Assembly (NCBI GenBank): GCA_003241875.1
Contig: QBLU01000034.1
Coordinates: 5,000-38,065 of the forward strand
DNA: 33,066 nt
Origin: Alphaproteobacteria bacterium
GTDB lineage: Bacteria; Pseudomonadota; Alphaproteobacteria; Sphingomonadales; Sphingomonadaceae
Reading direction: 5' to 3'
Shown here: one piece after another, positions 14,664 to 33,066 of the stretch
Position numbering within the stretch: the stretch's first letter is position 1
Layout of the letters: the number at the start of each line of letters is the position of its first letter
Notes under the pieces: generated by a model
The model's database searches: none
The model's input: the letters and a program-made list of their open reading frames with translations, nothing else
Told to the model about the DNA's origin: nothing
Position numbers and translations under genes: made by a program

Positions 14664-14679
14664 TGGCATGGAAGTTGCA
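14664..14679 (+). promoter_or_regulatory. Sigma-54-type -24/-12 promoter, first PEPxxWA-CTERM gene
   Basis: TGGCATGGAAGTTGCA matches the sigma-54 consensus TGGCAC-N5-TTGCW at all but one or two positions, with the invariant GG (14665-14666) and GC (14677-14678) exactly ten bases apart. Transcription would begin near 14690, leaving a leader of about 105 bases before the ATG at 14797. The 330-base gap 14467-14796 is locally AT-richer than its neighbours and holds no gene. It also contains an AACGC-G-GCGTT palindrome near 14631 and a GTAAA(N4)GCCGACA-like site at 14543-14558. Confidence 0.68.
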
Positions 14680-14796
14680 ATCGTTTCGATGAGCTATCTT
14701 TCATCGTGTCGATGCGACGTTCCGGCCCGACGGGTCCGGATCGCGGCGGCAATTTTGGCCGCGGGCTCGTAATCTTCCAACCATAACGGGGTCCAC

Positions 14797-15570
14797 ATGA
14801 CATCGATCAAGCACCATCTGGTGCGCTTCCTGGCGCTCGGCATCACCGCCGGCGCCATTGCGACCGGCGCCAGCGCGTCGACCAATCTCGTCACCAACGG
14901 CGGCTTCGAAACCTGGGGCCTGAGCGGTTCCGACGAGTTTTCGACCAACTACGCCCCCGGCAACGGCCAGCTGCAGGGCTGGACGACACGCGGCCTCGCC
15001 TTTGTGTTCGTCCCCGGTGACCATACCGCCGTCGGCCGCTATGGCGGTTTCGAGCTTTACGGCCCGGCCAATGGCTACAACAACGGCCTGACGACCAGTG
15101 CCCAGGGCGGCAACTATATCGCGTCGGACGCCGACCGCGGCTATGGCGCGCCGATCACCCAGCTGATCAGCGGGCTGGAAGTCGGCAAGACCTACAATGT
15201 CTCGTTCGAGTGGGCGGCCGGCCAGCAGCTCAACTACAACGGCGCGACGTTTGAATCCTGGCAGGTCAGCCTGCTCGATTCGAACAATATCGTCACCACC
15301 GACTATCGCACCGCCACGGTGACCAACCCCCAGGGTGGGTTCCAGGCTTGGCGCAGCGAAACCTTCAGCTTCGTCGCCACCGAGACGGCGCAGACGCTGC
15401 GCTTCTGGGCCGATGGTGGCCCGGGCGGCGTGCCGCCGTTTGCGCTGCTCGACGGTGTGTCGCTGACCGCGGCCGCCGTGCCCGAGCCGTCGACCTGGGC
15501 CATGCTGGTTGCGGGTTTCGGGCTTGTCGGCGCCGCTGCGCGCCGGCGCGTGCGTGCCATCGCTGCCTGA
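14797..15570 (+). CDS. PEPxxWA-CTERM sorting domain protein
   Basis: A 257-residue exported protein. A signal peptide (about residues 1-28, ending GASAS) precedes a beta-rich body that opens LVTNGGFETW, the pattern of DUF642/choice-of-anchor-type domains, and ends with QTLRFWADGG. The C-terminus carries the sorting signal VPEPSTWAMLVAGFGLVG followed by an arginine cluster. In this system an exosortase removes the C-terminal anchor and releases the protein to the cell surface or matrix; no exosortase gene is in the window. The ATG at 14797 begins the signal peptide. Expression is probably sigma-54 dependent, and a hairpin terminator follows at 15581. Confidence 0.9.
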   Translation: MTSIKHHLVRFLALGITAGAIATGASASTNLVTNGGFETWGLSGSDEFSTNYAPGNGQLQGWTTRGLAFVFVPGDHTAVGRYGGFELYGPANGYNNGLTTSAQGGNYIASDADRGYGAPITQLISGLEVGKTYNVSFEWAAGQQLNYNGATFESWQVSLLDSNNIVTTDYRTATVTNPQGGFQAWRSETFSFVATETAQTLRFWADGGPGGVPPFALLDGVSLTAAAVPEPSTWAMLVAGFGLVGAAARRRVRAIAA

Positions 15571-15580
15571 TGCGACAATG

Positions 15581-15608
15581 GGGTGGCCGGGGGTATCTCC
15601 GGCCACCC
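15581..15608 (+). terminator. Terminator of the first PEPxxWA-CTERM gene
   Basis: GGGTGGCCGG (15581-15590) and CCGGCCACCC (15599-15608) form a perfect 10-bp stem with an eight-base loop, followed by GTTTCGG. It begins 11 bases after the stop codon. It also argues that the next gene starts at 15634 rather than at the in-frame ATG at 15583 inside the hairpin. Confidence 0.72.
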
Positions 15609-15633
15609 GTTTCGGCCAAGGTTTCGCCCGCTG

Positions 15634-16461
15634 ATGTCCCTTTCCGGCCTTGCCATCGATGTTGCCCGGCTGTGCGTCTGGCTGGTCGTGCTGACGGCGG
15701 TGTTCGTGCCGCTGGAACGGCTGTTCGCCCGCGTGCCGTCGCCAGTGTGGCGGCGGGAGATCGGCATCGATCTAGGCTATTATTTCCTCAACAGCCTGGT
15801 GCCGGCGGCGTTGATCGCGCTGCCGCTGGCGCTGTTCGCGACGCTGGTGCAGCGGGTGCTGCCGGCGGGATTCCATGCCGCCGTCCATGCCCTGCCGCTG
15901 TGGCTGTCGATCCCGGCGGGGCTGGTCGTCGCCGATATCGGGTCATATTGGGGCCATCGCCTGATGCATGCGTCGCCGCTGCTGTGGCGGTTCCATGCTG
16001 TGCATCACAGCGCGGAACACATGGATTTCCTCGTCAATACAAGGGCCCATCCGGTCGACCTGGTGGTCACGCGACTGTCGGGGCTGGTGCCGCTCTATGT
16101 GCTCGGGCTGGGTGCGGCGGGGGCGGCGGGCAGCCTGTTGCCGGTGGTGATCACGCTGATCGGGACGTTTGCCGGCTTTTTCATCCACGCCAATTTGCGC
16201 TGGCGGCTGGGTCCGGTCGAGGCGCTGGTGGCGACGCCGGCGTTCCACCATTGGCATCACAGCCGCACCGACCATATCGATCGCAACTTTGCCGCGACCT
16301 TTCCGTGGCTCGACCGGCTGTTCGGCACCCATTACCTCCCCGATCACTTCCCCGATGCCTATGGCACCGTCGATGCCCAGCCGCCGACGCTGGCGGGGCA
16401 ATTGCTGGCGCCGGTGGTGGCGAGGCCGCCTATTTCAGCAGGGTCTGCGTCCAGAAGGTGA
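15634..16461 (+). CDS. Sterol desaturase / fatty acid hydroxylase family protein
   Basis: A 275-residue integral membrane protein with about four or five hydrophobic segments. The diiron-binding histidine clusters of the superfamily are present: GHRLMH, FHAVHHS and FHHWHHSRTDH. Members insert oxygen or double bonds into lipids; in bacteria targets include carotenoids, hopanoids and fatty acids, and the present target is unknown. The start at 15634 lies just past the preceding terminator and has AAGG upstream at a loose distance. The 3' end overlaps the convergent S9 peptidase gene by 32 bases, so its last residues are encoded opposite that gene's end. Confidence 0.85.
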   Translation: MSLSGLAIDVARLCVWLVVLTAVFVPLERLFARVPSPVWRREIGIDLGYYFLNSLVPAALIALPLALFATLVQRVLPAGFHAAVHALPLWLSIPAGLVVADIGSYWGHRLMHASPLLWRFHAVHHSAEHMDFLVNTRAHPVDLVVTRLSGLVPLYVLGLGAAGAAGSLLPVVITLIGTFAGFFIHANLRWRLGPVEALVATPAFHHWHHSRTDHIDRNFAATFPWLDRLFGTHYLPDHFPDAYGTVDAQPPTLAGQLLAPVVARPPISAGSASRR

Positions 16462-18340
16462 TGTTTGCCAGGAAGTTATAGTCCTGGTTTTCCTTCTTTC
16501 GATAGCCGTGGCCCTCGTTGGCGGCGAGGATGTGCCACGCCTGGCCGCCATTGCCGCGCACCGCGTCGACCATCTGGCTGGCCTCCGACGCCGGCACGCG
16601 GGGGTCGTTGCCGCCGGTGACGACAAGCAGTGGCATTTTCAGTTCCTTCGACCGCGTTATCGGCGAGATTTCGAGCAGCTTGCGGCGCTGCGCGGGCACG
16701 CGTTCGTCGCCATATTCGACCCGGCGCAGGTCGCGGCGATAGCCCTGGGTGTTCTCGAGGAAGGTGACGAAGTTCGAGATGGCGACGGTGCATTGCGCCG
16801 CCTGCAGCCGGTCGCCGTAGCGAATGGCGCTGGCATAGCACATGTAACCGCCATAGCTGCCGCCGGCGACGGCGATGCGGGCGGGGTCGATATCGGCGCG
16901 GGCGGCGAGGGTATCGAGCAGCGCCCCGACGTCCTTGACCGAATCCTCGCGCCTGGAGGGGCCATTGTCGAGCGCCACGAAGCGCTTGCCATAGCCGGTG
17001 GAGCCGCGAACATTGGGCGTGAACACCGCGATGCCGAGCTCGTTGATGAGGTAATTGTCGCGGCCGGCATAGTCGGGGCGCGACTGGCCCTCGGGGCCGC
17101 CGTGGATATCGATGATCAGCGGGCGCTTGCCGGGGAATTTCGCCGGGTCGGGGGTGGTCAGGAACCCCGAAACCGGCAGGCCGTCGAAGGATTTGACCGT
17201 CACCAGTTCGGGCAGGCGGTTCTGCGCGGCGTCGAGTCCGCCGGTTTCGGACCGTGTCCAGCGCGTCGCGACCAGCGTCTTGGGGTCGAGGCTCCAGGCG
17301 TCGGGGGGTGATATGGCGCTGGTCATGGTGAAGCCGATGGCGCCCCAGGGGGCGATCTCGATGCCGCCGAGCACGCCCGGCGGCAGCTTGGGCTCCCCGA
17401 TGACGGCGCCGGTCCTGGGGTCGACGAGGCGCAGGCGGGCAGCGCCGGCGACATTGTCGACCGTGGCGATGAAGCTGCCGTCGTCGGCGATGTCGAATTC
17501 GTCGACGTCCCATTGGGCAGGACCGTTGACCAGCGCCCGGAAACCGTCGCGGGCGTTGATCGTGCCGAGCCGCTGGACGTCGCTGCCGACGTCGGAGGTG
17601 ACGTAGATGGTGCCGTCGGGGCCGTATTTGGCGCCGGAATAGGCGGCATTGGGGCCAGGGCGGTTGAGCCGGCTGAGCACGCCGGTGCCGAGGTCGATCT
17701 CGAACAGGTCGGATCGTTCGACGGAAACATAGCGGCTGACCAGCGCCGTCTTGCCCGATGGCGCGAAATCGCTGAACGACCAGCCGCCGCCCTGCAGCGC
17801 GGCGAGCTTGCGATCGCTGCCCGGCGTGGCCGGATCGATCAGGTAAAGGTCGCTGTCGACCCCGTTGCGGCGGTTGGAGGCATAGCCGACGAGCCGGGAA
17901 TCGCGCGACCAGACGGCGCCGGTATTGCGGCTCTTGCCATCGGTCAGCAGGGTCAGCCGGCCTTTCGACAGGGTGTAAAGCTGGTAGAATTCGTTGCCGC
18001 CAATGTCCTTGCCCACCAGCAGCGTCCTGCCATCGGGCGACAGCGTGCCGCCGGGCACCGGTTCGGCCTCGAAACTGATCTGGGTGCGGGCGGCACCGGG
18101 GGCAGCGACGGTGTGAAGTTGCTGGGCATTGCCGAAGCGGGTGCCGATCAGCATGCCCTTGCCGACCGGATCCCAGCCCTGGAACGACGCGCTGCGGTTC
18201 TCCAGATAGGGCCGCACGGCATCCGCGAGGGCCAGCGGGATCGCCGGCACGCCGTCGGCGGTGATGGCAGCGGGTATGGGGACCGTCTGGGCCAGCGCCG
18301 GGGCAGCAAACAGGGTGGCGGCGAGCAGGATCTGGCGCAT
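16430..18340 (-). CDS. S9 family (prolyl oligopeptidase-type) serine peptidase
   Basis: A 636-residue exported peptidase. A signal peptide (residues 1-18, ending ALAQ) is followed by a beta-propeller-like region with WD-type repeats such as LSPDGRTLLVG and WSRDSRLVGYASN (about 60-370). The C-terminal alpha/beta-hydrolase domain contains the nucleophile Ser495 in GGSYGGY, Asp579 in GGNDPRVP and His611 in EGHGYRK, the full catalytic triad. It should cleave short peptides in the periplasm, probably an oligopeptidase of the dipeptidyl/acylaminoacyl type. The start at 18340 has GGAG five to six bases upstream. Transcribed alone; DUF1428 lies 84 bases upstream on the same strand. Confidence 0.9.
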   Translation of the reverse strand: MRQILLAATLFAAPALAQTVPIPAAITADGVPAIPLALADAVRPYLENRSASFQGWDPVGKGMLIGTRFGNAQQLHTVAAPGAARTQISFEAEPVPGGTLSPDGRTLLVGKDIGGNEFYQLYTLSKGRLTLLTDGKSRNTGAVWSRDSRLVGYASNRRNGVDSDLYLIDPATPGSDRKLAALQGGGWSFSDFAPSGKTALVSRYVSVERSDLFEIDLGTGVLSRLNRPGPNAAYSGAKYGPDGTIYVTSDVGSDVQRLGTINARDGFRALVNGPAQWDVDEFDIADDGSFIATVDNVAGAARLRLVDPRTGAVIGEPKLPPGVLGGIEIAPWGAIGFTMTSAISPPDAWSLDPKTLVATRWTRSETGGLDAAQNRLPELVTVKSFDGLPVSGFLTTPDPAKFPGKRPLIIDIHGGPEGQSRPDYAGRDNYLINELGIAVFTPNVRGSTGYGKRFVALDNGPSRREDSVKDVGALLDTLAARADIDPARIAVAGGSYGGYMCYASAIRYGDRLQAAQCTVAISNFVTFLENTQGYRRDLRRVEYGDERVPAQRRKLLEISPITRSKELKMPLLVVTGGNDPRVPASEASQMVDAVRGNGGQAWHILAANEGHGYRKKENQDYNFLANITFWTQTLLK

Positions 18341-18423
18341 CGAGGCTCCGGTGACAGGCAGGCGCGCAGCATAGGCGCAGCGCCGCTGGCCCGGCAAGGC
18401 GGGCGCCGCCCTGTCGCCGGGGA

Positions 18424-18780
18424 TCAGTCGGCGGCGGTGTCGACGATGGTGGCAAAGCCGCCGAACACCATGCGCTTGCCGTCGAAGGGCATCGCCATGT
18501 CTTTCATGGGGTTGTCAGCCATCATTCGGGCGTTGCCGGCGTCGCGAATTTCGCGCGATGGCCAGACGATCCACGAGAATACCACGGTTTCGTCGGCTTC
18601 GGCGGCGACGGCGCGGCGGAAATCGGTGACCTTGCCGTCGGGAATGTCGTCGCCCCAGCATTCGACGACGGCGAGGGCGCCGAGATCGCGGAAGATTTGG
18701 GCGGCGGCCGTGGCCACTTCGACATAGGCGGCGCGCTGGTCGTGGCGCACGGGCACGAGGAAACCATCGACATAGCTCAT
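18424..18780 (-). CDS. DUF1428 family protein (YbaA-like)
   Basis: A 118-residue protein of the DUF1428 family, of normal length, beginning MSYVDGFLVPV and containing ECWGDDIPDGKVTDFRRAV, VVFSWIVWPSR and the closing MPFDGKRMVFGGF. The fold is a ferredoxin-like alpha/beta-barrel dimer; biochemical function is unknown. No signal peptide is present. The ATG at 18780 has AAAAGGG about nine bases upstream; an in-frame start at 18870 would add an unrelated extension. Divergent from the pabB-pabC fusion across 140 bases. Confidence 0.9.
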   Translation of the reverse strand: MSYVDGFLVPVRHDQRAAYVEVATAAAQIFRDLGALAVVECWGDDIPDGKVTDFRRAVAAEADETVVFSWIVWPSREIRDAGNARMMADNPMKDMAMPFDGKRMVFGGFATIVDTAAD

Positions 18781-18920
18781 GGTCGGGACCCTTTTGCTGG
18801 CGTTCCGGCCATCAACGCCGCAGCCTTGCCGGGTGTTCCGGGCGCTGTCGGGTCGACTGCGGCGAGGCAACGCAAGCCGCCCCGGTGGCGGCGGCGCGGC
18901 ACTTGGCCTAGGAAACCCGC

Positions 18921-20633
18921 GTGTTCGACCCCGCGCGCCCCTTTGTGCTGCTCGACGATGTTGCGGCGGGGACGGCGCGGCTGTTCACCGGCATGCTGGA
19001 AACCGTGGTGGCGGAGGGGCCCGAGGCGGTGAGGCCGGGGCTCGATCGGCTGCGCGCGCCGGGGCCCTGGGCGGGTTTCATCGGGTTCGAGGCGGGCTAT
19101 GCGCTGGAACCGCGGCTGGTGCCGCGGGCGCCGCCGGCGGGCGAGCCGCTGCTGTGGTTCGGGCGCTTTGCCGAGGATCGCGCCGTGGCGGTCGAAACGC
19201 TGCTGGGGGACGCGCCGGCGACGGTCGGCGCGGTGGTGCCGGGGGTGGCGCGCGGCGAATATGATGCGCAACTGGCGCGAATTCTGGCGCTGATCGCGGC
19301 CGGCGATATCTACCAGGCCAATCTGACCTTTGCCGCCACGGTCGCCGTGGGGGGGCATCCGCTGGCGCTCTATGCGCGGCTGCGAGCCGGCAGCCGGGCG
19401 CCCTATGGCGCCCTGGTGTTCACCGGGGCGCTGTGGCTTCTGAGTTTTTCGCCCGAACTGTTCTTTCGCATGGACGGCCGGGCGCTGCTGGCGCGGCCGA
19501 TGAAGGGCACGGCGGCGCGCGGCGCCGATGCGGCGGACGATGCGGCGCGGGCGGCGGCGCTGCAGGCCGACCCCAAGAACCGCGCCGAGAACCTGATGAT
19601 CACCGACCTGTTGCGCAACGACCTGTCGCGGGTGGGCGGCGACGTGCGGGTGCCGGCGCTGTTTGCCGTCGAAACCTATCCGACGGTGCTGCAGATGACA
19701 TCGACGGTGACGGCGACGGCGCATGACGGCGTGACGGCAGCGGATGTTCTGGAACGGCTGTTTCCGTGCGGCTCGGTCACCGGCGCGCCGAAAATCCGCG
19801 CGATGGAGGTGATTGCCGAGGTCGAGGCCGGCCCGCGGGGCGCCTATACCGGCAGCATCGGGGTGATTTCGGCGAGCGGCGATGCGGTGTTCAACGTCGC
19901 GATCCGCACGCTGGTGATGGCGCCGGGGGCGGCGACGGCGCGACTGGGGCTGGGCAGCGGCATCGTCGCCGACAGCGATGCGGCCGATGAATGGGCGGAA
20001 TGCCTTGCAAAATCAGCGTTTCTGGCGCGGCGGGGAGCCCCGGATCTTATCGAAACCATGCGCTGCGAAGACGGCAACCTGCCCGACATTGAGGCGCATC
20101 TGGCGCGAATGGCGGCAAGCGCCGTATTTTTCGGCTCGGTCCTGGATGCGGATGCGGCGCGAAATCGCGTGCGGGCGGCGGTTTCGGACGGGATTTCGGG
20201 GCGGATTCGCTTGATTGCCTGCTCAACTGGCGCGATCGCGGTGCAGGTATCGCCGCTGCCGCCGGCGCCCGCTGGTGCGGTCGCGGTGGCACTGGCGCGG
20301 CTGCCGGTCGATCCGGGCGACTGGCGGTTGCGGCACAAGACCGGCGACCGCGGCTTCTACGACGCCGCCCGCCGCGCCGCGGGCACCGGCGAGGTCGCGC
20401 TGGTCCGCGCCGACGGATGGGTGACGGAGGGCAGTTACACCAATATCTTCGTCGAACGCGACGACCTGCTGGTGACGCCGCCGCTGGCGCTCGGCCTGTT
20501 GCCGGGCGTGCTGCGCGGCCGGCTGATCAATCAGGGCCTGGCGGTGGAGGGCATGGTGACCGTCGCCGACCTGGCCGGCGGTTTCTATATCGGCAATGCG
20601 CTGCGCGGGTTGATGGCGGCGCGGCTGGCGTGA
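18921..20633 (+). CDS. pabB: Aminodeoxychorismate synthase component I fused to aminodeoxychorismate lyase
   Basis: A 570-residue two-domain protein for p-aminobenzoate synthesis on the folate route. Residues about 1-375 are PabB: GDIYQANLTF (128-137), PMKGT (193-197, with the Lys of the PIKGT motif), LMITDLLRNDLSR, CGSVTGAPKIRAM and the end GSGIVADSD. Residues about 378-570 are a class IV aminotransferase-fold lyase (PabC): HKTGDRGFYDAARR, in which Lys473 is the PLP lysine candidate, and TEGSYTNIF. The fusion would pass aminodeoxychorismate between sites. The glutamine amidotransferase PabA is not in the window. The start is a GTG at 18921 with AGGAAA eight bases upstream. Confidence 0.92.
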   Translation: MFDPARPFVLLDDVAAGTARLFTGMLETVVAEGPEAVRPGLDRLRAPGPWAGFIGFEAGYALEPRLVPRAPPAGEPLLWFGRFAEDRAVAVETLLGDAPATVGAVVPGVARGEYDAQLARILALIAAGDIYQANLTFAATVAVGGHPLALYARLRAGSRAPYGALVFTGALWLLSFSPELFFRMDGRALLARPMKGTAARGADAADDAARAAALQADPKNRAENLMITDLLRNDLSRVGGDVRVPALFAVETYPTVLQMTSTVTATAHDGVTAADVLERLFPCGSVTGAPKIRAMEVIAEVEAGPRGAYTGSIGVISASGDAVFNVAIRTLVMAPGAATARLGLGSGIVADSDAADEWAECLAKSAFLARRGAPDLIETMRCEDGNLPDIEAHLARMAASAVFFGSVLDADAARNRVRAAVSDGISGRIRLIACSTGAIAVQVSPLPPAPAGAVAVALARLPVDPGDWRLRHKTGDRGFYDAARRAAGTGEVALVRADGWVTEGSYTNIFVERDDLLVTPPLALGLLPGVLRGRLINQGLAVEGMVTVADLAGGFYIGNALRGLMAARLA

Positions 20634-20666
20634 AAAAACGGGGCGACCCGGCTGGGCCGCCCCGTT
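20633..20666 (-). terminator. Intrinsic terminator of the second PEPxxWA-CTERM gene
   Basis: Arms 20637-20645 (AACGGGGCG) and 20658-20666 (CGCCCCGTT) enclose an inner CCC/GGG stem. On the minus strand the hairpin is followed by six T residues (20633-20638), a textbook rho-independent terminator starting 11 bases after the minus-strand stop. It also borders the pabB-pabC stop codon. Confidence 0.85.
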
Positions 20667-20676
20667 GTCAGGCAGT

Positions 20677-21267
20677 TCAGGCGGCGACGGTGATCCGGCG
20701 GCGGCGCATGGCGGCGCCGGTCAGACCGAAGCCGGCGATCAGCATCGCCCAGCTGGCGGGTTCGGGCACGCTGGGCACAGCTGAAGCCATCGAGGTCACG
20801 ATCATCCGATCGCCGCCAGCCGTCGAAAGCGTGAAGTATGACGTCCCGGTCGGAGCGCCGTTGAACTGCCCGAACAGGTTGAAGTCGCCAAACTGGCCGA
20901 AAGAGCAGAAGTCGGCTTTGCCGAACGAGCAGCCGTTGCCCATGGCCTGCCCGATGAGTTCCTGGCTGTAATCGAGCTGCGAGAACGACGCGAAATAATA
21001 GGATGCGAAATCGGTTTGAGCGAAGCTGCCGTTGCCGGTCGTCGCGCCGCTGATCGTCAGGTCGAGCAGCTGCACATTGGCGCTGGGAAAGCTGTTCTGG
21101 TTCTGTGCGCCGCCAAGGTCAGCGGGCGTCGCACTGAAATCGAAATGGCCGATCGCCGAGGCGCCGTTGTTGAACGGCGCACCGCTCCAGGTGACGGTAA
21201 AAACGGCGGCATTGGCGGCCGCAGACAAGGCGAGCGCTGCGCCGAACGCCAAAAGCTTGATTTTCAT
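20677..21267 (-). CDS. PEPxxWA-CTERM protein with FG-rich segment
   Basis: A 196-residue exported protein. The signal peptide (1-21) ends in ANAA. The body is poor in charge and rich in Phe, Ser, Gly and Asn. Residues 113-135 hold four Phe-Gly pairs and two cysteines (Cys113 and Cys121), including CSFGKADF and CSFGQFGDF. The C-terminus is the sorting signal VPEPASWAMLIAGFGLTG followed by four arginines. No known domain was recognised in the body. The ATG at 21267 has GGGGGG six bases upstream. A sigma-54-type element lies at 21330-21345 and an intrinsic terminator follows the stop. Confidence 0.88.
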   Translation of the reverse strand: MKIKLLAFGAALALSAAANAAVFTVTWSGAPFNNGASAIGHFDFSATPADLGGAQNQNSFPSANVQLLDLTISGATTGNGSFAQTDFASYYFASFSQLDYSQELIGQAMGNGCSFGKADFCSFGQFGDFNLFGQFNGAPTGTSYFTLSTAGGDRMIVTSMASAVPSVPEPASWAMLIAGFGLTGAAMRRRRITVAA

Positions 21268-21329
21268 GATTGCCCCCCGGCTGTTTCGGCAACGGGAAAT
21301 CCGCCGCCTAATGACCGAAGCAAAGTTAT

Positions 21330-21345
21330 AACAACTATCGTGCCA
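21330..21345 (-). promoter_or_regulatory. Sigma-54-like -24/-12 promoter, second PEPxxWA-CTERM gene
   Basis: Read on the minus strand this is TGGCACGATAGTTGTT. The -24 half matches TGGCAC perfectly, and the spacing to the -12 half is ten bases, but the -12 dinucleotide is GT rather than GC. Transcription would start near 21318, about 50 bases before the ATG. Upstream lie two inverted copies of CGTGAAATWCG (21367-21377 and 21429-21439) and an ATACGG/CCGTAT dyad (21373-21397), possible activator sites. Confidence 0.5.
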
Positions 21346-21473
21346 AAACCCAAGCCACTGATATTGCGTGAAATACGGTATCGTCTGGTGGCCGTATGGC
21401 AGTCTGTTCCACACTTCGGCCCGCGCAACGAATTTCACGTCGCCGGTTGCGTCGCTTGCGTCGCCGGGGCTAG

Positions 21474-22703
<1,230 letters not shown>

Positions 22704-22787
22704 GCGGGCGGGCCGGCGCAGGGGTTGTAACGGCGGCGTATTCAGCCATGATGCGCGCCGGTTTCAGCGCTGGTGGCGGAGATGACG

Positions 22788-23657: not shown

Positions 23658-23702
23658 CGGCGTGACCGCACCCGCGCCTGGTGCCGGTTGACCCGGCCAG
23701 CC

Positions 23703-24587
23703 ATGCCCCGCGCCGTCCTTGCCAGCCTGGTTGCCGTGCCGGTCGCGGTGCTCGCCGTCGCCGGCTGGGCGTGGAGGGCGAGCGAGGCGCATCTCACCGG
23801 CTTTGCCGCGCCGCCGCCGTTCGCCGCGGTCGTTGCCGGGGATGGCGCGACCGTTGCCAAGGGCCAGCACCTGGCGATCACCCGCGGCTGCATCGGTTGC
23901 CATGGCGAGCGGTTGCAGGGGGAGGTGTTCGAGGACGATCCGCTGCGCGGGCGCTTCGTTGCCGCCAATCTGGCGAAGCTGGCGCGGCAGCAGTCGCCCG
24001 CGGTGTTCGAACGCGCGCTGCGGCACGGCATCGGCCAGGACGGCCGCGCGCTTTATGCCATGCCGTCGTATAACTTCGTGCATCTGCGCGATGCCGATGT
24101 CGCGGCGCTTTACGCCTATGCGCGCAGCCTGCCGGTCGCCGAGACCCCGCTGCCGGCGCCGCGGGTCGGCCCGGTGATCCGCTGGGCGATCGCCCGCGGC
24201 CAGGACGGCGCGGTGCCGGCGTTCGTGCCCAAGGTGCCGGCGCTGCGCTGGCAGGCCCATGCCGATCCCGCCGTCCGCCGCGGCGAGTATCTGGCGATGA
24301 CGAGCTGCAACGAATGCCATGGCTTTGCCTTGCGCGGTGACGACCCCTTTGCCCCGCCCGGCAGCCCGCCGCCCGTTGGCGGCCCGCCCGACCTCGCCAT
24401 CGTCGCCGGCTATGGCAGGGACGCCTTCGTGCGCCTGATGCGCACCGGCAAGCCGCCCGGCGACCGCGACCTCGGCCTGATGACCCGCGTCGCCCGCGGC
24501 CGCTTTGCCCACTGGACCGATGCGGAGTTGGAGGATCTCTATGCGTTTCTCGTGGCGATGGGGGCGCAAGCAAGGGGGCAGGGCTGA
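23703..24587 (+). CDS. Di-haem cytochrome c
   Basis: A 294-residue cytochrome with two c-type haem sites: CIGCH (63-67) and CNECH (202-206). An N-terminal hydrophobic segment (about residues 5-23) is an uncleaved anchor or signal, so the haem domains face the periplasm. Candidate axial methionines are in YAMPSYNF and LGLMTRVA. The two-domain layout resembles the cytochrome subunits of periplasmic alcohol or gluconate dehydrogenases, but no dehydrogenase subunit is adjacent, so the electron partner is unknown. The ATG at 23703 is preferred over a TTG at 23688; neither has a strong ribosome-binding site. Confidence 0.87.
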   Translation: MPRAVLASLVAVPVAVLAVAGWAWRASEAHLTGFAAPPPFAAVVAGDGATVAKGQHLAITRGCIGCHGERLQGEVFEDDPLRGRFVAANLAKLARQQSPAVFERALRHGIGQDGRALYAMPSYNFVHLRDADVAALYAYARSLPVAETPLPAPRVGPVIRWAIARGQDGAVPAFVPKVPALRWQAHADPAVRRGEYLAMTSCNECHGFALRGDDPFAPPGSPPPVGGPPDLAIVAGYGRDAFVRLMRTGKPPGDRDLGLMTRVARGRFAHWTDAELEDLYAFLVAMGAQARGQG

Positions 24588-24596
24588 AAGGGGTGG

Positions 24597-24881
24597 TTAG
24601 CTGCCGTTCGCTAGCGGGTCTTTGTCGGGCGCGCTTCCGTTTCGCAGGACTAGAGAAACCGCATTGCGCCAGTCTTCCCAGAGTGCGCGGTCGATTGGTG
24701 CGCCTTGTGGCGCACTCGCGTCCAAACCCATCGTGCGACCCGTGGAAGACAGGATGTTCGCAATGTTGTCCTCGGATCGTCCCCCAACCTCCCACCATAT
24801 TTCCAAAAACCGGCGCATTGCGTCGAAGGCCGCTAGTTCGTCCAAGGTGCGAAGCGGCGGAGCGCCTGTCCAATCATCCAT
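24597..24881 (-). CDS. Small protein of unknown function, atypical composition
   Basis: A 94-residue acidic, Trp-rich cytoplasmic protein. It starts MDDWTGAPPLRTLDELAAFD and contains AMRRFLEIWWEVGGRSEDNI and IDRALWEDWRNAV. No named domain was recognised; the WW pair and the ALWEDW motif suggest a compact helical fold. Base composition is clearly lower in GC than the genes on either side, and codons such as AAT, TTG, TCT and CGT are more frequent, suggesting transfer or relaxed selection. The ATG at 24881 has only a weak AGG upstream; the open frame continues upstream to 25538 through repeat DNA, which is not credible as coding. Convergent with the cytochrome c gene, with nine bases between them. 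Confidence 0.62.
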   Translation of the reverse strand: MDDWTGAPPLRTLDELAAFDAMRRFLEIWWEVGGRSEDNIANILSSTGRTMGLDASAPQGAPIDRALWEDWRNAVSLVLRNGSAPDKDPLANGS

Positions 24882-25032
24882 ACGCCTACAGTAACGTGGC
24901 AGCGAATGTCCGCTAGTGGGGCGAAAGCCGACAGGCAGGATCAACGGCGGCGCAAGGGTTGTTCTTAAAGGCTCCGGCAGCGTGGCTGGTCGCTTGGCGT
25001 CGCGCGCGGCGAGGCTGCGCATAAACCCGAAT

Positions 25033-25136
25033 GTCATCCCGGCGCAGGCCGGGACCCATGAACCACCGGCTTGCCGGGGTGAGCGCTCCGGTTGCCGAGG
25101 TTGTGGGCCATGGGTCCCGGCCTTCGCCGGGATGAC
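25033..25136. repeat. 28-base inverted repeat pair of the sphingomonad palindrome family
   Basis: Arm one (25033-25060) begins GTCATCCCGGCGCAGGCCGG and ends GACCCATG. Arm two (25109-25136) is its reverse complement with a single mismatch (27 of 28). The 48-base centre holds a further short GC-rich dyad. The core is the same as at 3720-3879. It fills much of the 290-base gap 24882-25171 between the small unknown gene and DUF445; no gene is seen there. Confidence 0.85.
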
Positions 25137-25171
25137 GGGGGGGGCGCTTTCCCCCGCCGTCGCCCGCGGCG

Positions 25172-26377
25172 TCAGAGTGCCAGCGTTGCCGCGTGGATGG
25201 CGAGGCCGACGGCGCCGCCGATGACGGTGCCGTTGATGCGGATGAACTGCAGGTCGCGGCCGACGGCGGTTTCGAGCTTTTCGGTGACGGTCGAGGCGTC
25301 CCAGCTGCGCACCGTGGTGCTGACCAGGCTGACGATCTCGTCGCCATAGTCGTTGACGAGGCCGACGGCGGCGCGGCGCAGGTGGAGGTTGATGGCGGCC
25401 CGCAAGGGCGCGTCGGCCTCCAGCCGGGCGCCGAGCGCCTTCATGGCGACGGCGAGCTTGCCCGGGGCGATCGCATCGGGGTTGGTCAGGCTGGCGACGA
25501 GACTGGTGCGGGCGCTGTCCCACAGGCCCTGGAGCCACAGCGCCATCGCCGGATTTTCGATGAGGTCTTCCTTGAAGCCTTCGATGCGGGCCTGGGTTTC
25601 GGGGAAATGCCTGAGGTCGAAGGCATAGGTGCGCAGGCCTTCGGCGATGCGGCGGCGCAAGGGGTGCTGCGGATCGGCGGCCATTTCGGACAGCAGCCGG
25701 CCCACCCCGCTGATCAGCGACGACGATACCTGCTCATCGACATTGACCAGTTTGAGGAACCAGTTGGTGCGTTCGGCGACCATGCCGCGGATCGTCGATT
25801 CCTGGTCGGCGAGCATCCCCGCCAGCCACTGGATGCCGCTGTCGATCAGCGGTTCGTGGCGGCGCTTGTCGATCGTCGTGTCGATGGCATCGGCGAGGAT
25901 GGGGGACAATTGCACGTTGCGCAGGCGTTCGGTGGCGGCCTCGCGCACCAGGTCGCCGATGACGCGCTGGTCGAGCGCCTCGATCAGCCGGGCGATGAGC
26001 GGCCCCCAGCCGCGCTTTCGCCCCGGTGCGGGGGTGCGGTCGGCGAGCAGCCAGCGCGCTGCGGCGCCGGCGATGTCGACCTCCTCCAGCCGCCGCGCGA
26101 CGATGGCGGGGGTGAGGAAATTGTCCTTGAGGAACACCGCCAGGCTGTCGCCGATGCGGTCCTTGTTGGCCGGGATGATCGCGGTGTGCGGGATCGGCAG
26201 GCCGAGCGGGTGGCGGAACAGCGCGGTGACGGCGAACCAGTCGGCGAGGCCGCCGACCATCGCTGCCTCGGCAAAGGCCTGGACCCAGGGCAGCGCCGGG
26301 TGGGCGCCGCGCCAGTACAGCGTGGCCGCGAACAGCACCGCCATGGCGATCAGCAGCAGCGTCGCCGCCAGCCGCAT
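25172..26377 (-). CDS. DUF445 family membrane protein
   Basis: A protein of at least 401 residues of the DUF445 (YjiN-like) family. A hydrophobic N-terminal segment (about 3-20) leads into the diagnostic EAAMVGGLADWFAVTALFRHPLGLPIPHTAIIPANKDRIG region (residues about 37-76); a long helical middle follows, and a second hydrophobic segment (VIGGAVGLAIHAATLAL) closes the protein. Function is unknown. The start is uncertain: the first ATG (26377) has no ribosome-binding site, while the frame stays open upstream with FELPATPFHR, resembling the longer N-termini of relatives, but offers no ATG, GTG or TTG. It lies 70 bases after the RND pump gene on the same strand. Confidence 0.8.
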   Translation of the reverse strand: MRLAATLLLIAMAVLFAATLYWRGAHPALPWVQAFAEAAMVGGLADWFAVTALFRHPLGLPIPHTAIIPANKDRIGDSLAVFLKDNFLTPAIVARRLEEVDIAGAAARWLLADRTPAPGRKRGWGPLIARLIEALDQRVIGDLVREAATERLRNVQLSPILADAIDTTIDKRRHEPLIDSGIQWLAGMLADQESTIRGMVAERTNWFLKLVNVDEQVSSSLISGVGRLLSEMAADPQHPLRRRIAEGLRTYAFDLRHFPETQARIEGFKEDLIENPAMALWLQGLWDSARTSLVASLTNPDAIAPGKLAVAMKALGARLEADAPLRAAINLHLRRAAVGLVNDYGDEIVSLVSTTVRSWDASTVTEKLETAVGRDLQFIRINGTVIGGAVGLAIHAATLAL

Positions 26378-26447
26378 TCGGTGGAACGGCGTCGCCGGCA
26401 GCTCGAATGGGCGCAGCAGTTTCAGCAGTTGATCACTTTTCGCAGCG

Positions 26448-29400
26448 TCACTCCGCCGGCTGCGGAGTCGCCTTGACGGTAGCGCCTTCGTTGTTGGTGA
26501 ACCAGCGCTTCATGCGCGGCGCGAGCCATTCCTCGGCGCCGACGGCGAGGCTGAAGGCGGCAGGAACGATGACCAGCGTCAGCGCCGTCGACACGATCAG
26601 CCCGCCGATGACGACGATGCCCATCGGCGCGCGGAAGCTGCCGTCGCCGCCCAGCGACAAGGAGACGGGCAGCATGCCGGCGACCATGGCGATGGTCGTC
26701 ATGATGATCGGCTGGACGCGCTTGTGGCCGGCCTCAAGAATGGCGGCGGTGCGTTCGGCGCCGTGCTTCATCTCCTCGATCGCCATGTCGACGAGCAGGA
26801 TCGAGTTCTTGGCGACGATGCCGAGCAGCATCAGCAGCCCGATGAACACCGGCATCGAGATGACGGTACCGGTCAGGTGCAGCGCCAGGCCGCCGCCCAG
26901 CGGCGCCAGCAGCAGCGAGCCCATGTTGACGAACGGCGGCAGCACCCGCTTGTAGAGGAGGACGAGGACGGCAAAGACCAACAGCACGCCGGCGACGACG
27001 GCGATGACGAAGTTGACCATCAGTTCGGCCTGCCACTTGTCCTGGCCGAGGGTGACGCGCTCGATGCCCTGCGGCAGGTTCTTGACGGCGGGCAGCGCCA
27101 GGATCTTTTCCATGGCGGTGCCGCTGACGAGGCCCGGGGCAAGGTCGGCGCCGATCATCACGCGGCGCGACTGGTTGTAGCGGCGAAGCTCGGTCGGGCC
27201 GGTGCCGAAGCTGACATTGGCGACGACCTTCAGCGGTACCGAGCCGCCGCGCGTCGTCGGCACCGGCAGGTTTTCCAGCGTCTCGATGCTGCGGCGCGAA
27301 TTTTCGGCGAGCGCGACGCGGATTGGGATCTGGCGATCGGAGAGCGAGAATTTGGCGACATTCTGGTCGATGTCGCCCAGCGTCGCGATGCGGATGGTTT
27401 CCGACAGCGCCGCCGTCGTCACGCCCATGTCGGCGGCAACGTCGAAGCGCGGCTGGATGGTGATTTCCGGGCGGCGCAGGTCGCCTTCGATGCGCGGCTG
27501 GCGGATTTCGGACAGGCCGCGCATCTGGTCGACGATCTTCGACGCCGCAGCCTCGAGCTGCACCGGGTCGCTGCCCGACAGCACCACCGACAGGTCGCGG
27601 CCGTTGAAGCCGCCGTTCTGCGACTGGAAGCCGACGCGGGCATCGGGGATGGTCTGCAGCTTGGGTGCCATCGCGCGTTCGAATTCGACACTGGTGACCG
27701 GGCGATCCTTCTTCAGGGTCAGGAAGACATTGGCCGAGCCGACCTCGATATCCGAAAAGGCCTCGGCGACGACCGGGGAGGCCTGGACGATCCGGCTGGC
27801 GGCATCGGCGACGGCTTCGGTCTGGGCCAGCGTCGCACCCGGCGGCAGCGCGATCGAGATCTGGCTGTAGTCCGAATCGCGGGCCGGCTGGAAGGTGATC
27901 GGCAGGGTGGCGTAGCTGACGACGGTCAGCACCAGCGCCAGCAGGCCGATGCCCATGGTCCACCAGCGGTTGTCGAGGCACCATTTCAGGACGCGGATAT
28001 AGGCGCGCACCCAGGCCTTGTCGCCATGCTCGGCCTCGCCGTGGCTTTTCAGGAAAAAGGCCGCGAGCATCGGCGTGATGAGGCGCGCGACGGCGAGGCT
28101 CAGCAGCACCGAGACGACGACGGTGAAGCCGAAATTCTTGAAGAACTGGCCCGAAATGCCGGGCATCAGGCCGACGGGCAGGAACACCGCGACGATGGCG
28201 AAGGTGGTGGCAACGACGGCCAGGCCGATCTCGTCGGCGGCGTCCATCGAGGCCTGATAGGCGGATTTTCCCATGCGCATGTGGCGGACGATGTTCTCGA
28301 TCTCCACGATCGCATCGTCGACGAGGACGCCGGCGACGAGGCTGAGCGCCAGCAGGCTGAGCACGTTCAGCGAGAAGCCGAGCAGGTCCATGAACCAGAA
28401 GGCCGGGATTGCCGACAGCGGGATGGCGAGCGCGGCGATGACCGTCGCGCGCCAGTCGCGCAGGAAGACGAAGACGACGATGATGGCGAGGATGGCGCCC
28501 TCGATCATCGCCGAGATCGACGATTCATACTGCTGCTTGGTGAAATCGACGCTGGTGTACAGCTCGGTGAAGGTGATCTGGGGATTGTCCTGCTTCAGCT
28601 GCGCCAGCACCTTCTGGGCTTCGTCATAGACGGTGACGTCGGACGAGCCCTTGGACTTGGCGATCGAGAAGTTGAGGACCTGGCGGCCGTTCTTCTTCGA
28701 CAGGTTGCGCTGTTCGGCATAGCTGTCCTTGACATCGGCGATGTCGGACAGGCGGACGACGCGGCCGCCGGGCACGGAAATCTGGGTCTCGCCGAGCGCC
28801 AGTGCATTCTCGGCATTGCCGATGACGCGCACCGACTGTTCGGAGCCGGCGATTTCGGCGCGGCCGCCGGCGGCGTTGAGATTGACGAGGCGGAGCTGGT
28901 CATTCACCTGGCTCGCGGTCAGCCCATAGGACTGCATGCGGGCGGGATCGAGGATGACGCGGATCTCGCGGCTGACCCCGCCCGAGCGGCGGACCTGGGC
29001 CATGCCCGGGATGGCGAGCAGTTTCTTGGAAATGGTGTTGTCGACATACCAGCTGAGCTGTTCCAGCGTCATGTCGGTGGCTTCGACCGCGAAATAGGCG
29101 ATCGGGCCGCCCGACACGTCCATGCGCTGGACCTGCGGCTGCAGGATGCCCTGCGGCAGGTCGCTGCGGATATTGGCGATGGCGTCGCGGACATCGTTGA
29201 CGCCGCGATCGACCGGCGTGCCGATGGCGAACTGCACGGCGGTGCGCGACTGGCCTTCCGACACATAGGAGGTGATTTCGTCGACGCCGTTGATGCCGCG
29301 CACCGCCGCCTCGACGCGCTGGGTGACCTGGGTCTCGAGCTCGGTCGGCGCCGCGCCGGGCTGGCTGACAACGACCTGCGCCGCCGGAAAATCGATGTCC

Positions 29401-29516
29401 GGGTTGTCGTTGATGTCCATCTTGATGAAGCTGACGATGCCGGCGAGGACCAGCATCGCGAACAGCACCAGCGGCGGGATGGGGTTCTTGATCGCCCAGG
29501 CGGAAATGTTGCGCAT
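26448..29516 (-). CDS. RND efflux transporter, inner-membrane pump subunit
   Basis: A 1022-residue proton-driven efflux pump of the AcrB/MexB/MdtB superfamily (HAE1 type). It has twelve expected membrane helices in two sets of six, each with a large periplasmic loop after the first helix. The proton-relay acidic pair is Asp400-Asp401 in [13 protein letters not shown], and the Lys of the second half is in [12 protein letters not shown]. Such pumps export drugs, dyes or toxic metabolites; the substrate is not readable. The gene follows the membrane fusion protein by nine bases. No outer-membrane channel gene is adjacent, so a TolC-like partner must come from elsewhere. Confidence 0.93.
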
Positions 29517-29525
29517 GGTCTGGCC

Positions 29526-30701
29526 TTAGCCGGGGGTGCGGGCGAGGGTGGGGGCGAGCACCGGGGCGACCTTTTCGCCCGGCCGCAGGAAGGCGCCGGC
29601 GTTGGCGACGACCTTTTCGATGCCGGTGATGCCGGCTTCGATGCTGACGCCGTCATTGCTGACCGTGCCGATGGTGACGGCGCGGCGCTGGACCTTGTTG
29701 TCGGCGCCGACGACCATGACGTAGTTGCCCTTGTCATCGGCCTGGATCGCCGACTGCGGCAGCACCGGGCGCAGCGCCTCGCCGGCGTCGATCGCCACCT
29801 TGGCAAAGGCGCCGACGCGCAGGCCCGGGGCATAGGGCACGGCGACGCGCGCCACGCCCTGGCGGCTGATCGCGTCGATGACGGGGTCGAGCAGCCAGAT
29901 CTTGCCGGGATAGGCGGTGGTGGAGCCGACCGGCGTCACCCGTGCCGGCATGCCGGGCTTCAGCCGCGCCATGTCCTGTTCGGCGACGAGGGCTCGCATC
30001 TCGAGGATGCCGCCTTCGGCGATGCGGAACATCGGCGTGCCGCTGCCGGCGCCGACGATCTGGCCGGTTTCGACCGAGCGCGACAGCACCAGGCCGGCGG
30101 CCGGGGCGCGGATGTCGAGCCGGGCGATCAGCGCCTCGTTGGCGGCGAGCTGGGCGCGGGCCAGTTCGGTGCGCGCCTGCGCGCCATCGCGGGTGGCGGT
30201 GCGACGGTCGATGTCGGCCTGCGAGATGAAGCCCTTTTGCACCAGCGCCTGGGCGCGCTTGAGATCGGCATCCGCAAGGCGGGCGTCGGCCTCGGCGGAG
30301 CGGATGGAGGCACGCAGCTGCGCCGATGTCTGCACGGGGACGGCGCGATCGATTCGCGCCAGGACCTGCCCGCGGGCGACCGACTGGCCGGGTTCGACCA
30401 GCACCGCGATGACGCGGCCGCCTTCGCCCTGGACGCCGATCGCCGAGTCGCGGCGGGCAGCGATCGAGCCGGTGGCCTTGCGCGTGCCGGGGACGACGAC
30501 GGTGACCTGGGGGGCGACCGCGGCCGGCGCGGCAGGGGGCGCGGGGGCAAAGAACGTGCGGTAGGCGACGATCGCGGCAACGATCACCAGCGCGATGACG
30601 ACCGGCACCAGCCAGCGCGGCCGGCGCGTCGTCGCGGCCGGCTCGGGGAAGCTGTAAAGGTCTGCCGCTTGCGGGTCGGGCAGCTTGTTATGCATGTTCA
30701 T
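29526..30701 (-). CDS. RND efflux periplasmic adaptor (membrane fusion protein)
   Basis: A 391-residue adaptor that connects the RND pump to an outer-membrane channel. A cytoplasmic N-terminus of about 27 residues is followed by one membrane helix (about 30-50) and a Pro/Ala-rich linker. The split lipoyl half-motifs are GGRVIAVLVEPGQSVARGQV and LDIRAPAAGLVLSRSVETGQ, with a helical hairpin between them. Beta-barrel and membrane-proximal domains complete the protein. The start is ATG at 30701 or the in-frame ATG at 30695, with no strong site for either. First gene of the efflux operon. Confidence 0.9.
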   Translation of the reverse strand: MNMHNKLPDPQAADLYSFPEPAATTRRPRWLVPVVIALVIVAAIVAYRTFFAPAPPAAPAAVAPQVTVVVPGTRKATGSIAARRDSAIGVQGEGGRVIAVLVEPGQSVARGQVLARIDRAVPVQTSAQLRASIRSAEADARLADADLKRAQALVQKGFISQADIDRRTATRDGAQARTELARAQLAANEALIARLDIRAPAAGLVLSRSVETGQIVGAGSGTPMFRIAEGGILEMRALVAEQDMARLKPGMPARVTPVGSTTAYPGKIWLLDPVIDAISRQGVARVAVPYAPGLRVGAFAKVAIDAGEALRPVLPQSAIQADDKGNYVMVVGADNKVQRRAVTIGTVSNDGVSIEAGITGIEKVVANAGAFLRPGEKVAPVLAPTLARTPG

Positions 30702-30728
30702 GCTCTGATACGTCCTCTGGCGAGAACT

Positions 30729-30839
30729 GTATTACTTGAATACCCCACCGCCTGCAAGTGTGTGTGTTAGCGCAGGAGTGTGGCGATGCGAAGGCAATTT
30801 CCTGCACGAATCGTTCATAACGGGTAAGAAACACACTTG
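30729..30839. promoter_or_regulatory. Efflux operon control region with long-spaced inverted repeat
   Basis: In the 192-base divergent gap, CAAGTGTGT (30755-30763) and its exact complement ACACACTTG (30831-30839) are spaced 76 bases apart. On the minus strand a weak promoter can be drawn: TTGCAG (30752-30757), 17 bases, TAATAC (30729-30734). The first repeat arm overlaps its -35 box, as expected for a repressor site. No regulator gene is adjacent. Confidence 0.4.
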
Positions 30840-30893
30840 TGTGACGGTGATTGCCGGTTCGGGCAGGGCTGTGACCATCGGGAGGAGACGGCA

Positions 30894-31154
30894 ATGGGAC
30901 TGTTCGGGCTCATCGGCACCGCGATCGTCGGGCTGATCGTCGGCGGCATCGCCAAATGGCTGTCGCCGGGTCCCAAGCCCGATGGCTGCATCGTCACCAT
31001 CCTGATCGGCATCGCCGGCGCCATGATCGCCAAATATGTCGGCAGCGAGGTGTTCGGCTGGTATCGCGACGGTGACGCACCGGGCTGGATCATGTCGGTG
31101 CTGGGCGCCGTCGTGCTGCTGTGGCTGTACCGGCTGGTGCGCAACCGCGGCTGA
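30894..31154 (+). CDS. GlsB/YeaQ/YmgE family stress response membrane protein
   Basis: An 86-residue small membrane protein with three hydrophobic segments. It starts MGLFGLIGTAIVGLIVGGIA, continues with KWLSPGPKPDGCIVTILIGI and ends with a helix and RLVRNRG. The Gly-rich helices and the PGPKPDG turn are typical of the transglycosylase-associated (YeaQ/GlsB) family, linked to general and envelope stress in other bacteria but without a known activity. The ATG at 30894 follows GGGAGGAGA at a good distance. Divergent from the efflux operon; the SIMPL gene follows after 82 bases. Confidence 0.88.
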   Translation: MGLFGLIGTAIVGLIVGGIAKWLSPGPKPDGCIVTILIGIAGAMIAKYVGSEVFGWYRDGDAPGWIMSVLGAVVLLWLYRLVRNRG

Positions 31155-31236
31155 GGCGCCAACCGTTCAGGGTTGCGAAAGTCGGCAGGGCCGAAACGGC
31201 GGCCATCGCCGATCCGCAACCAGGGGTACCCTGCCG

Positions 31237-31968
31237 ATGACCATTCGCCGTTCCGCCGTTTCCGCCGCCCTGGCCGCGAGCCTCGCCGCCGCCGTGCCCG
31301 CCATGGCGCAGGTTCCGGGCCAGACCTTCACCGTCGCCGCCGCGCCGACGACACTGACCATCGTCGCCGAGGGCCGGGTCACCCGCGCCCCCGATGTCGC
31401 CGAAGTGTCGGGCGGCGTCGTCACCACCGCGGCAACGGCGGCGGCGGCGATGTCCGAAAACGCCACCCGCATGACGGCGGTGGTGGCGGCGATCCGCAAG
31501 GCGGGTGTCGCCGATCGCGACATCCAGACCAGCGGCCTCAACCTGCAGGCGCAGTATCGCTATGAAAACAACCAGGCGCCGATCCTGACCGGGTACCAGG
31601 CGAGCAACACGGTGAAGCTGCGGCTGCGCAAGCTCGCCGATGCCGGCCGCCTGCTCGATACCCTGGTCGCGGTCGGTGCCAACCAGCTCAACGGCCCGGT
31701 GTTCAGCATCGACGACGACACCGGTGCGCTCGACGAGGCGCGCATCCAGGCGGTGGCGACGGCGCGCAAGCGGGCCGAGCTCTATGCCCGGGCTGCGGGC
31801 CTGAAGATCGGCCGCATCGTCCGCATTTCCGAGGTCGCCGGCGCGCCCGAGGAGCCGCGGCCGATGGCGATGACGATGCGGGCCAAGGCGTCGGATGCGG
31901 CGCCGCCGGTCGAACCGGGTGAGGTCGCGCTGACCGTCGACGTCACCATGGTGTTCGAACTGCAATAG
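31237..31968 (+). CDS. SIMPL domain-containing exported protein (DUF541)
   Basis: A 243-residue secreted protein. The signal peptide (1-24) ends AMAQ. The SIMPL/DUF541 body shows the family hallmarks: LTIVAEGRVTRAPDVAEVSG, DIQTSGLNLQAQYRYE, and ARKRAELYARAAGLKIGRI before a closing TVDVTMVFEL strand. Bacterial relatives are periplasmic or outer-membrane-associated and form oligomers; their function is poorly known, with hints of roles in oxidative stress. The ATG at 31237 has AGGGG about ten bases upstream. The third PEPxxWA-CTERM regulatory region begins right after its stop. Confidence 0.88.
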   Translation: MTIRRSAVSAALAASLAAAVPAMAQVPGQTFTVAAAPTTLTIVAEGRVTRAPDVAEVSGGVVTTAATAAAAMSENATRMTAVVAAIRKAGVADRDIQTSGLNLQAQYRYENNQAPILTGYQASNTVKLRLRKLADAGRLLDTLVAVGANQLNGPVFSIDDDTGALDEARIQAVATARKRAELYARAAGLKIGRIVRISEVAGAPEEPRPMAMTMRAKASDAAPPVEPGEVALTVDVTMVFELQ

Positions 31969-32038
31969 GTGTCGGCCAGATTTACAGCGTAAACCTTTCG
32001 ATCAGGTTTTGGCGCTGCAATTCCTTAACTTTTGCAGT

Positions 32039-32054
32039 TGGCCCGAATGTTGCA
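32039..32054 (+). promoter_or_regulatory. Sigma-54-type -24/-12 promoter, third PEPxxWA-CTERM gene
   Basis: TGGCCCGAATGTTGCA has the invariant GG (32040-32041) and GC (32052-32053) ten bases apart, with TTGCA as the -12 half. Transcription would start near 32065, about 30 bases before the ATG. Upstream within 60 bases is the palindrome TTTAC-AGC-GTAAA (31981-31993). Confidence 0.65.
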
Positions 32055-32807: not shown

Positions 32808-32865
32808 GTGGATTGCAGTTTCGTTGAACCAGGAAGGCCCGCTCAGGCTGAGCTTGTCGAAGCCG
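32808..32865 (+). repeat. 58-base direct repeat, copy 1
   Basis: This 58-base segment recurs without mismatch at 33009-33066, 201 bases downstream. It contains the core GCTCAGGCTGAGCTTGTCGA. No gene is seen between the terminator at 32754 and the window end. Confidence 0.9.
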
Positions 32866-32888
32866 TGTCGCAGGGCGGTGCTCGCGGG

Positions 32889-33008: not shown

Positions 33009-33066
33009 GTGGATTGCAGTTTCGTTGAACCAGGAAGGCCCGCTCAGGCTGAGCTTGTCGAAGCCG
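33009..33066 (+). repeat. 58-base direct repeat, copy 2 (cut by window end)
   Basis: Identical to 32808-32865 over all 58 bases available. The window ends within or at the end of the copy, so its true length and a following inverted arm cannot be judged. Confidence 0.9.

Follow-up and report, generated by a model that had tools for sequence, protein, structure and literature searches.

Each of the three PEPxxWA-CTERM genes in a 33,066-nt stretch of an alphaproteobacterial genome (GenBank GCA_003241875.1, contig QBLU01000034.1, positions 5,000-38,065 of the forward strand) is preceded by a sigma-54-type -24/-12 element. We refer to this whole stretch as the window and to the genome (3.82 Mb in 111 contigs) as G000. 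Judged from sequence, and with a probability of about 85%, these elements are promoters read by sigma-54 (RpoN) polymerase at genes for exported, exosortase-sorted proteins. They would belong to a set found at 22 of the 53 PEPxxWA genes of G000, of which 18 also carry an upstream box of the type assigned to the regulator PrsR, placed mostly on one face of the DNA helix. The features of the window on which the argument turns are as follows.

14664..14679, plus strand: sigma-54-type -24/-12 element of gene 1, TGGCATGGAAGTTGCA, one mismatch, 117 bases 5' of the chosen start
14797..15570, plus strand: PEPxxWA-CTERM gene 1, 257 aa (NF035944, 49.5 bits, cut-off 35)
20677..21267, minus strand: PEPxxWA-CTERM gene 2, 196 aa (NF035944, 52.2 bits, cut-off 35)
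21330..21345, minus strand: sigma-54-type -24/-12 element of gene 2, TGGCACGATAGTTGTT, one mismatch, GT replacing GC, 62 bases 5' of the start
31970..31986, plus strand: PEP-box of gene 3, a predicted enhancer site for PrsR, TGTCGGCCAGATTTACA, 53-base gap to the promoter GG
32039..32054, plus strand: sigma-54-type -24/-12 element of gene 3, TGGCCCGAATGTTGCA, one mismatch, 40 bases 5' of the start
32095..32733, plus strand: PEPxxWA-CTERM gene 3, 212 aa, a DUF642/choice-of-anchor C protein (NF035944, 46.7 bits; TIGR04362, 152.9 bits; PF04862, 67.5 bits)

The window and the genome were scored against the sigma-54 consensus TGGCACGNNNNTTGCW (TGGCACG-N4-TTGCW), and in the window only sites with at most one mismatch were trusted. 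There are three such sites in the 33 kb, all upstream of the PEPxxWA-CTERM genes, and they are the GG-N10-GC-type elements that a first-pass annotation of the window had noted, at the coordinates given there. Looser matching in the window gives chance-level counts: 7 sites at up to two mismatches against 6.97 expected, and 46 at up to three against 62.6.

Across G000, the consensus at up to one mismatch has 57 matches, a density of about 0.5 in a stretch the size of the window; the reversed pattern has 32. Of the 57, 17 precede PEPxxWA genes, against an expectation of about 0.04, which is the kind of genome-wide enrichment that the first-pass annotation had proposed to look for. The 53 PEPxxWA genes are those above the NF035944 cut-off. 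We scanned up to 450 bases 5' of each of their starts; a site with two mismatches was accepted if it lay no more than 120 bases from the start. Within that distance, 22 genes have a site (17 with at most one mismatch and 5 with two); one more gene, with a site 192 bases from its start, was left out of this count. In a strand control over the same upstream regions, the best match has at most two mismatches on the gene strand in 23 cases and on the opposite strand in 2, one of which, judged by coordinates, serves a PEPxxWA gene that is transcribed divergently. Start codons were picked by heuristic; two promoters (L052 and L070) count only with the next in-frame Met as the start, and one gene with 34 aa from its chosen start (L042) and three whose available upstream region was shorter than 450 bases (L037, L048, and L060) are all among the 31 genes that lack a site. 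The earlier idea that the PEPxxWA branch forms one dispersed RpoN regulon thus stands in part: a dispersed set of RpoN-type promoters lies far above chance. A regulon of all PEPxxWA genes was rejected on account of those 31, and what remains is a large subset of the genes rather than the whole branch.

That the three window elements are chance matches, with the genes transcribed from other promoters, might be argued from the chance-level yield of two-mismatch sites in the window and from the many sister genes with no promoter site. We regard this as very improbable, as sites with one mismatch are scarce enough that a stretch of this size should hold about half of one, yet all three found here stand at the three genes; the genome-wide enrichment at PEPxxWA genes also speaks against it, as does the in-phase box that gene 3 has in addition.

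That box is one of a set. Unsupervised Gibbs sampling of the 22 upstream regions recovered the motif (G/C)TGTCGG-N5-TTTACA with 464 bits, against 273-287 bits in shuffled sets (40 restarts on the real set; three shuffles with 12 restarts each). By matrix, the box is present at 18 of the 22 promoters; 15 of these copies built the matrix and so score high by construction, and the other three (at L034, L040, and L052), which lie outside the matrix set, are significant against shuffles. The gene 3 copy scores 21.1 bits, but it is one of the 15 builders. A pattern combining box and promoter has 15 matches in G000 against none for the reversed pattern. All but one of the 15 belong to PEPxxWA genes, gene 3 among them (G000:C39:36969-37052). 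A box of this kind has a precedent. In 2006, Haft et al. described a shared upstream box accompanied by a sigma-54 motif in proteobacterial PEP-CTERM genes, 99 of the 167 considered, and the PrsK/PrsR pair owes its name to that finding; their motif 1 has 17 bases with TTTACA at its 3' end and a spacer of 32-92 bases (mean, 62.8; SD, 10.6) (PMC1569441). The gene 3 box, likewise of 17 bases and ending in TTTACA, lies within that range of the sigma-54 motif. Since the G000 box agrees with the one that Haft et al. reported for PEP-CTERM genes, our finding extends a known regulon.

The spacing between box and promoter follows the DNA helix. Gaps from the box to the GG of the promoter cluster at 52-54, 62-67, and 72-76 bases, and they are phased at a period of 10.5 (R=0.82, n=62, p<=5e-5 against uniform gaps in the range of the combined pattern, which admitted gaps of 46-76 only). 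The set comprises 15 sites of G000, among them one on contig C33 away from any PEPxxWA gene, and 47 from six relatives picked for their many matches. The three boxes outside the matrix are also in phase, with gaps of 75, 73, and 53 bases, while one further box in G000 (L075) has a gap of 100, beyond the pattern range. Such phasing is expected if contact between PrsR and the polymerase requires both to sit on one side of the double helix, and the spacer mean and SD of Haft et al. would fit a mixture of such gap classes. The phasing provides a sharp rule for spotting PrsR targets.

The machinery for such regulation is encoded in G000. There is one RpoN (TIGR02395, 403 bits, cut-off 277), and among 12 matches to PF00158, eight are strong sigma-54 activator domains, one of them PrsR (TIGR02915, 670 bits, cut-off 502.6). 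The gene for PrsK (TIGR02916, 577 bits, cut-off 300) lies directly upstream of prsR and overlaps it by 4 bases. Hence rpoN and prsR, whose absence from the genome the first-pass annotation had named as grounds for dropping its proposal, are both present, and so is prsK. The single exosortase match is XrtV (NF035943, 384.7 bits, cut-off 313), in surroundings that resemble an exopolysaccharide locus, the neighbors being judged by eye. XrtA was not found in G000, the exosortase scoring 132 bits against the XrtA cut-off of 208. NCBIfam labels PrsK an XrtA-system protein; because no XrtA was found, PrsK/PrsR seems to work with XrtV in this genome.

From these elements, we infer binding, activation, expression, and sorting in the following form. 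The membrane kinase PrsK would phosphorylate PrsR, which would then bind the PEP-box, contact RpoN polymerase at the -24/-12 element, and open the promoter; the target proteins would leave the cytoplasm by means of their signal peptides, and XrtV would then process them. Gene 3 appears to fit this mechanism fully. The PrsK/PrsR link drawn in the first-pass annotation is to that extent supported by the presence of both genes and of the gene 3 box, but it does not extend to the other two window genes, which have no predicted PrsR box.

The reach of the association was gauged in 298 genomes of the window's family with a strict box/promoter pattern, PrsR being sought among the five top candidates of each genome. 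A PrsR match at E<=1e-130 is present in 252 genomes (251 of them above the family cut-off). The box/promoter pair occurs in 186 of the 298, as against 34 matches of the reversed pattern in 32 genomes by manual count, and it tracks PrsR: 175 of the 252 genomes with PrsR have the pair, against 11 of the 46 without a PrsR match (p=1e-8). PEPxxWA genes are present in 97 of the 298 genomes, with 20 or more in 47; counts per genome in this survey run up to 27 and are lower bounds at that value, G000 having 53 by its own search. In the genomes rich in PEPxxWA genes (at least 20), pairs occur in 36 of 37 with PrsR against 1 of 10 without, and that one exception (G159) is an assembly 84% complete. In G286, a genome of the same genus as G000, neither a PrsR match nor a pair was found, although it has two exosortase matches and at least 27 PEPxxWA genes. 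Relatives that have PEPxxWA genes and lack PrsR thus mostly lack the pairs as well, which amounts to a natural experiment.

In five of the six relatives used for the phasing, 40 of the 47 sites were traced downstream. The pair precedes a protein of PEP-CTERM type in 34 of the 40 (21 with PEPxxW, 4 with another PEP-CTERM, and 9 with a VPAP-type anchor), and at six there is no PEP-CTERM-type open reading frame (ORF). The nine VPAP-type cases (among L305-L312, L315, and L317; genomes G099 and G210) precede proteins that end in VPAP...RRR instead of PEPxxWA, which indicates that the switch is not bound to one sorting signal.

Several observations weigh against a PrsR-governed sigma-54 regulon as the account of these promoters. 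The gene 2 element has GT for GC at -12, and 31 of the 53 PEPxxWA genes of G000 showed no such promoter within 120 bases of the start. Neither Gibbs sampling nor the matrix gives a significant box at genes 1 and 2 (best scores, 3.0 and 3.4 bits; p of about 0.13 and 0.12), and the matrix gives none at two further promoters (L039 and L066). Seven sigma-54 activators besides PrsR are encoded in G000. Among relatives, 77 of the 252 genomes with PrsR have no strict pair, 11 of the 46 with no PrsR match have one nonetheless, and 7 of the 36 PEPxxWA-rich genomes with both have only a single pair; moreover, the cross-counts were read from tables by hand, and the genomes are related, so that the counts are not independent events. 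Among the 11, three assemblies are incomplete (G152, G159, and G176), and some of the matches look like chance.

The missing boxes bear most directly on genes 1 and 2, which we therefore do not file as members of the PrsK/PrsR regulon; they are probably sigma-54-dependent, with an activator site other than a recognizable PEP-box. Control by a different activator is possible but less likely than not; apart from the want of a significant PEP-box, candidates are at hand: NtrC, NtrX, and PspF score above their cut-offs, and four further activators pass no named family's cut-off. It is countered by the box itself, which 18 of the 22 promoters in the set possess, and by the upstream regions of genes 1 and 2, in which no further common motif was found, the PEP-box alone having been modeled. 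For the regulon as a whole, sigma-54 promoters with a PrsR-type box at most of them remain our preferred account. By eye, L039 and L066 have box-related sequences with altered spacing. A further case that stands apart is a relative 96% complete (G017), with five pairs, nine PEPxxWA genes, no PrsR match, and no exosortase match; here, either genes were missed or a different activator is used.

The strongest new lead of the analysis is a probable small RNA in relatives. Of 30 loci with the pair taken from relatives, four were set aside: L141 because it nearly duplicates L140, and three others (L153, L154, and L169) because the pair precedes an ORF there. At 23 of the 26 loci examined, the box/promoter pair precedes a hairpin and no convincing gene. 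The hairpin has the form GAGGCGGGnCC...GUCUCC...GGnCCCGCCUC and is closed by CUUCG/CGAAG. A model (R1) built from 21 copies, with the promoter sequence excluded, has matches in 97 of the 298 family genomes and 35 of 96 genera, as a single copy in 93 genomes and as two copies in four. Under strict filters, R1 has no match in G000 or in six sampled genomes of its genus. A class sample of 385 genomes gave four matches, three among its five genomes of the family and one among the other 380; this last match (E 0.005) was rejected as spurious, as neither a box nor a sigma-54 core is present in the stretch around it, which by eye resembles coding sequence. The copies are represented by the following entry.

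L170-L259 (e.g., L171:1501-1569, plus strand): hairpin copies matched by model R1

Ninety of the 101 match rows were examined (11 were left out), 19 of them from genomes that had supplied the model. A sigma-54 core and a PEP-box, each with at most two mismatches, stand before 89 of the 90 copies, the core being perfect in 77, and the spacer between box and promoter is 63-65 bases in 88 of the 89. By manual tally, 70 of the 71 copies outside the model-source genomes have both core and box. As a control, the reverse complements of these stretches contain no perfect core; 12 of 90 have a core with one mismatch, and every box match there has at least three. Likewise, 19 exact-pattern matches in named records, including those of Citromicrobium bathyomarinum IOP_28, Novosphingobium malaysiense MUSC 273, and Alteriqipengyuania abyssalis NZ-12B, have the sigma-54 core in all 19 cases and the box in 18. 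By manual count, 56 of the 97 hairpin genomes have exactly one strict pair, and PrsR is present in 92 of the 97 (p=5e-4). PEPxxWA genes occur in 10 of these genomes and are absent from 87, and 8 have no exosortase match.

The stem itself appears to be maintained. In the fitted alignment (A2; 91 rows, including a weak antisense match added by L186 and kept in the counts), double changes occur at 12 of 16 pairs, in 83 cells against 14 expected, and none of 500 shuffles reaches any of the measures. In the unfitted alignment (A1) of the 21 copies, they occur at 6 of 16 pairs, in 11 cells against 3.4, although 57 of 500 shuffles reach the same count of pair types. In the loop, the unpaired GUCUCC is 88-100% conserved per position and exact in 74 of the 91 rows. 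Single-strand folds of five copies give z-scores from -5.3 to -0.5, so that folding energy alone is not decisive. Rfam searches at nine loci returned only tRNAs, with nothing at E<=1 in L171:1380-1720.

Taken on this evidence, the hairpin is probably a small RNA controlled by PrsR and sigma-54, and we consider it likely that PrsK/PrsR, so far described only in connection with PEP-CTERM genes, has a small noncoding RNA as an additional target in roughly one in three of the family genomes sampled. It might instead be a terminator or some other element of a neighboring gene: in several genomes, it adjoins the 3' end of a gene that runs toward it and that, by eye, encodes a monothiol glutaredoxin, and the one hairpin locus scanned showed no terminator-like site of its own. 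That explanation is unlikely in view of the core and box set at a near-constant distance just ahead of almost every copy, the covariation of the pairs, the conservation of a loop that is unpaired, and the presence of a different neighbor in other genomes. If the small RNA is real, it would be a posttranscriptional arm of the PrsK/PrsR system and a conserved readout of it. The GUCUCC loop resembles an anti-Shine-Dalgarno seed (UCUCC), and the RNA may repress translation of its targets while the PrsR program is on.

Qrr, GlmY/GlmZ, and CrcZ are sigma-54-dependent small RNAs. The hairpin resembles them, and likewise the small RNA target of a Desulfovibrio regulator, in being a short intergenic element behind what is predicted to be an enhancer-dependent promoter; it differs in that a PEP-box replaces the sites of other activators, in having no Rfam match, and in having no convincing copy outside the family in the class sample. 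The Desulfovibrio case is DVU0679, a regulator other than PrsR with a small RNA target, in a study in which DVUA0057, the PrsR according to Haft et al., had its five predicted PEP-CTERM targets enriched in DAP-chip (PMC3333781).

The regulon itself shares with that of Haft et al. a sigma-54 motif near the start, a 17-base box ending in TTTACA, dispersed targets, a tandem prsK-prsR, and only partial coverage of PEP-CTERM genes, 99 of 167 there and promoters at 22 of 53 here. It differs in that the G000 targets bear the PEPxxWA signal, with XrtV the sole exosortase found, in the phasing of the box, which is added here, and in the lack of a box at window genes 1 and 2. The reading given in the first-pass annotation is thus partly right and was largely anticipated by those authors in 2006; they called the PrsK/PrsR stimulus obscure (PMC1569441). 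Our results tie PEPxxWA/XrtV, a little-studied sorting signal, to a defined kinase-regulator pair and provide a list of promoters. Aquincola tertiaricarbonis, the source of a further parallel, is a betaproteobacterium. Its pepA gene, like those of the window, is a PEP-CTERM gene with a -24/-12 element, there at a mapped start; unlike the window genes, it is a single gene from a betaproteobacterium, for which the accessible part of the report shows a need for RpoN1 and none is shown for PrsR (PMC9850573). In the literature searched, which covered few subscription papers, the term PEPxxWA-CTERM did not occur, no small RNA controlled by PrsR or a PEP-box was described, and we found no description of the XrtV-only setting, the box phasing, or this small RNA.

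Other sigma-54-type sites of G000 with zero or one mismatch lie near sigma-54 activator genes, including pspF (C78:103295, C103:4054, C103:4198, C63:10233, C42:11485, and C42:11670), and are probably other sigma-54 promoters. An Rfam search of the window gave no match to a known RNA family. An intergenic repeat lies 3' of gene 3 in two near-identical copies, at about 32810-32866 and 33010-33066 of the window, and a related sequence follows the contig C33 site mentioned above. That site (L127; G000:C33:49853-49947, minus strand) is the only box/sigma-54 pair of G000 away from a PEPxxWA gene; it runs into the last part of a gene that by eye looks like truA, and it precedes a possible membrane ORF of 38 aa.

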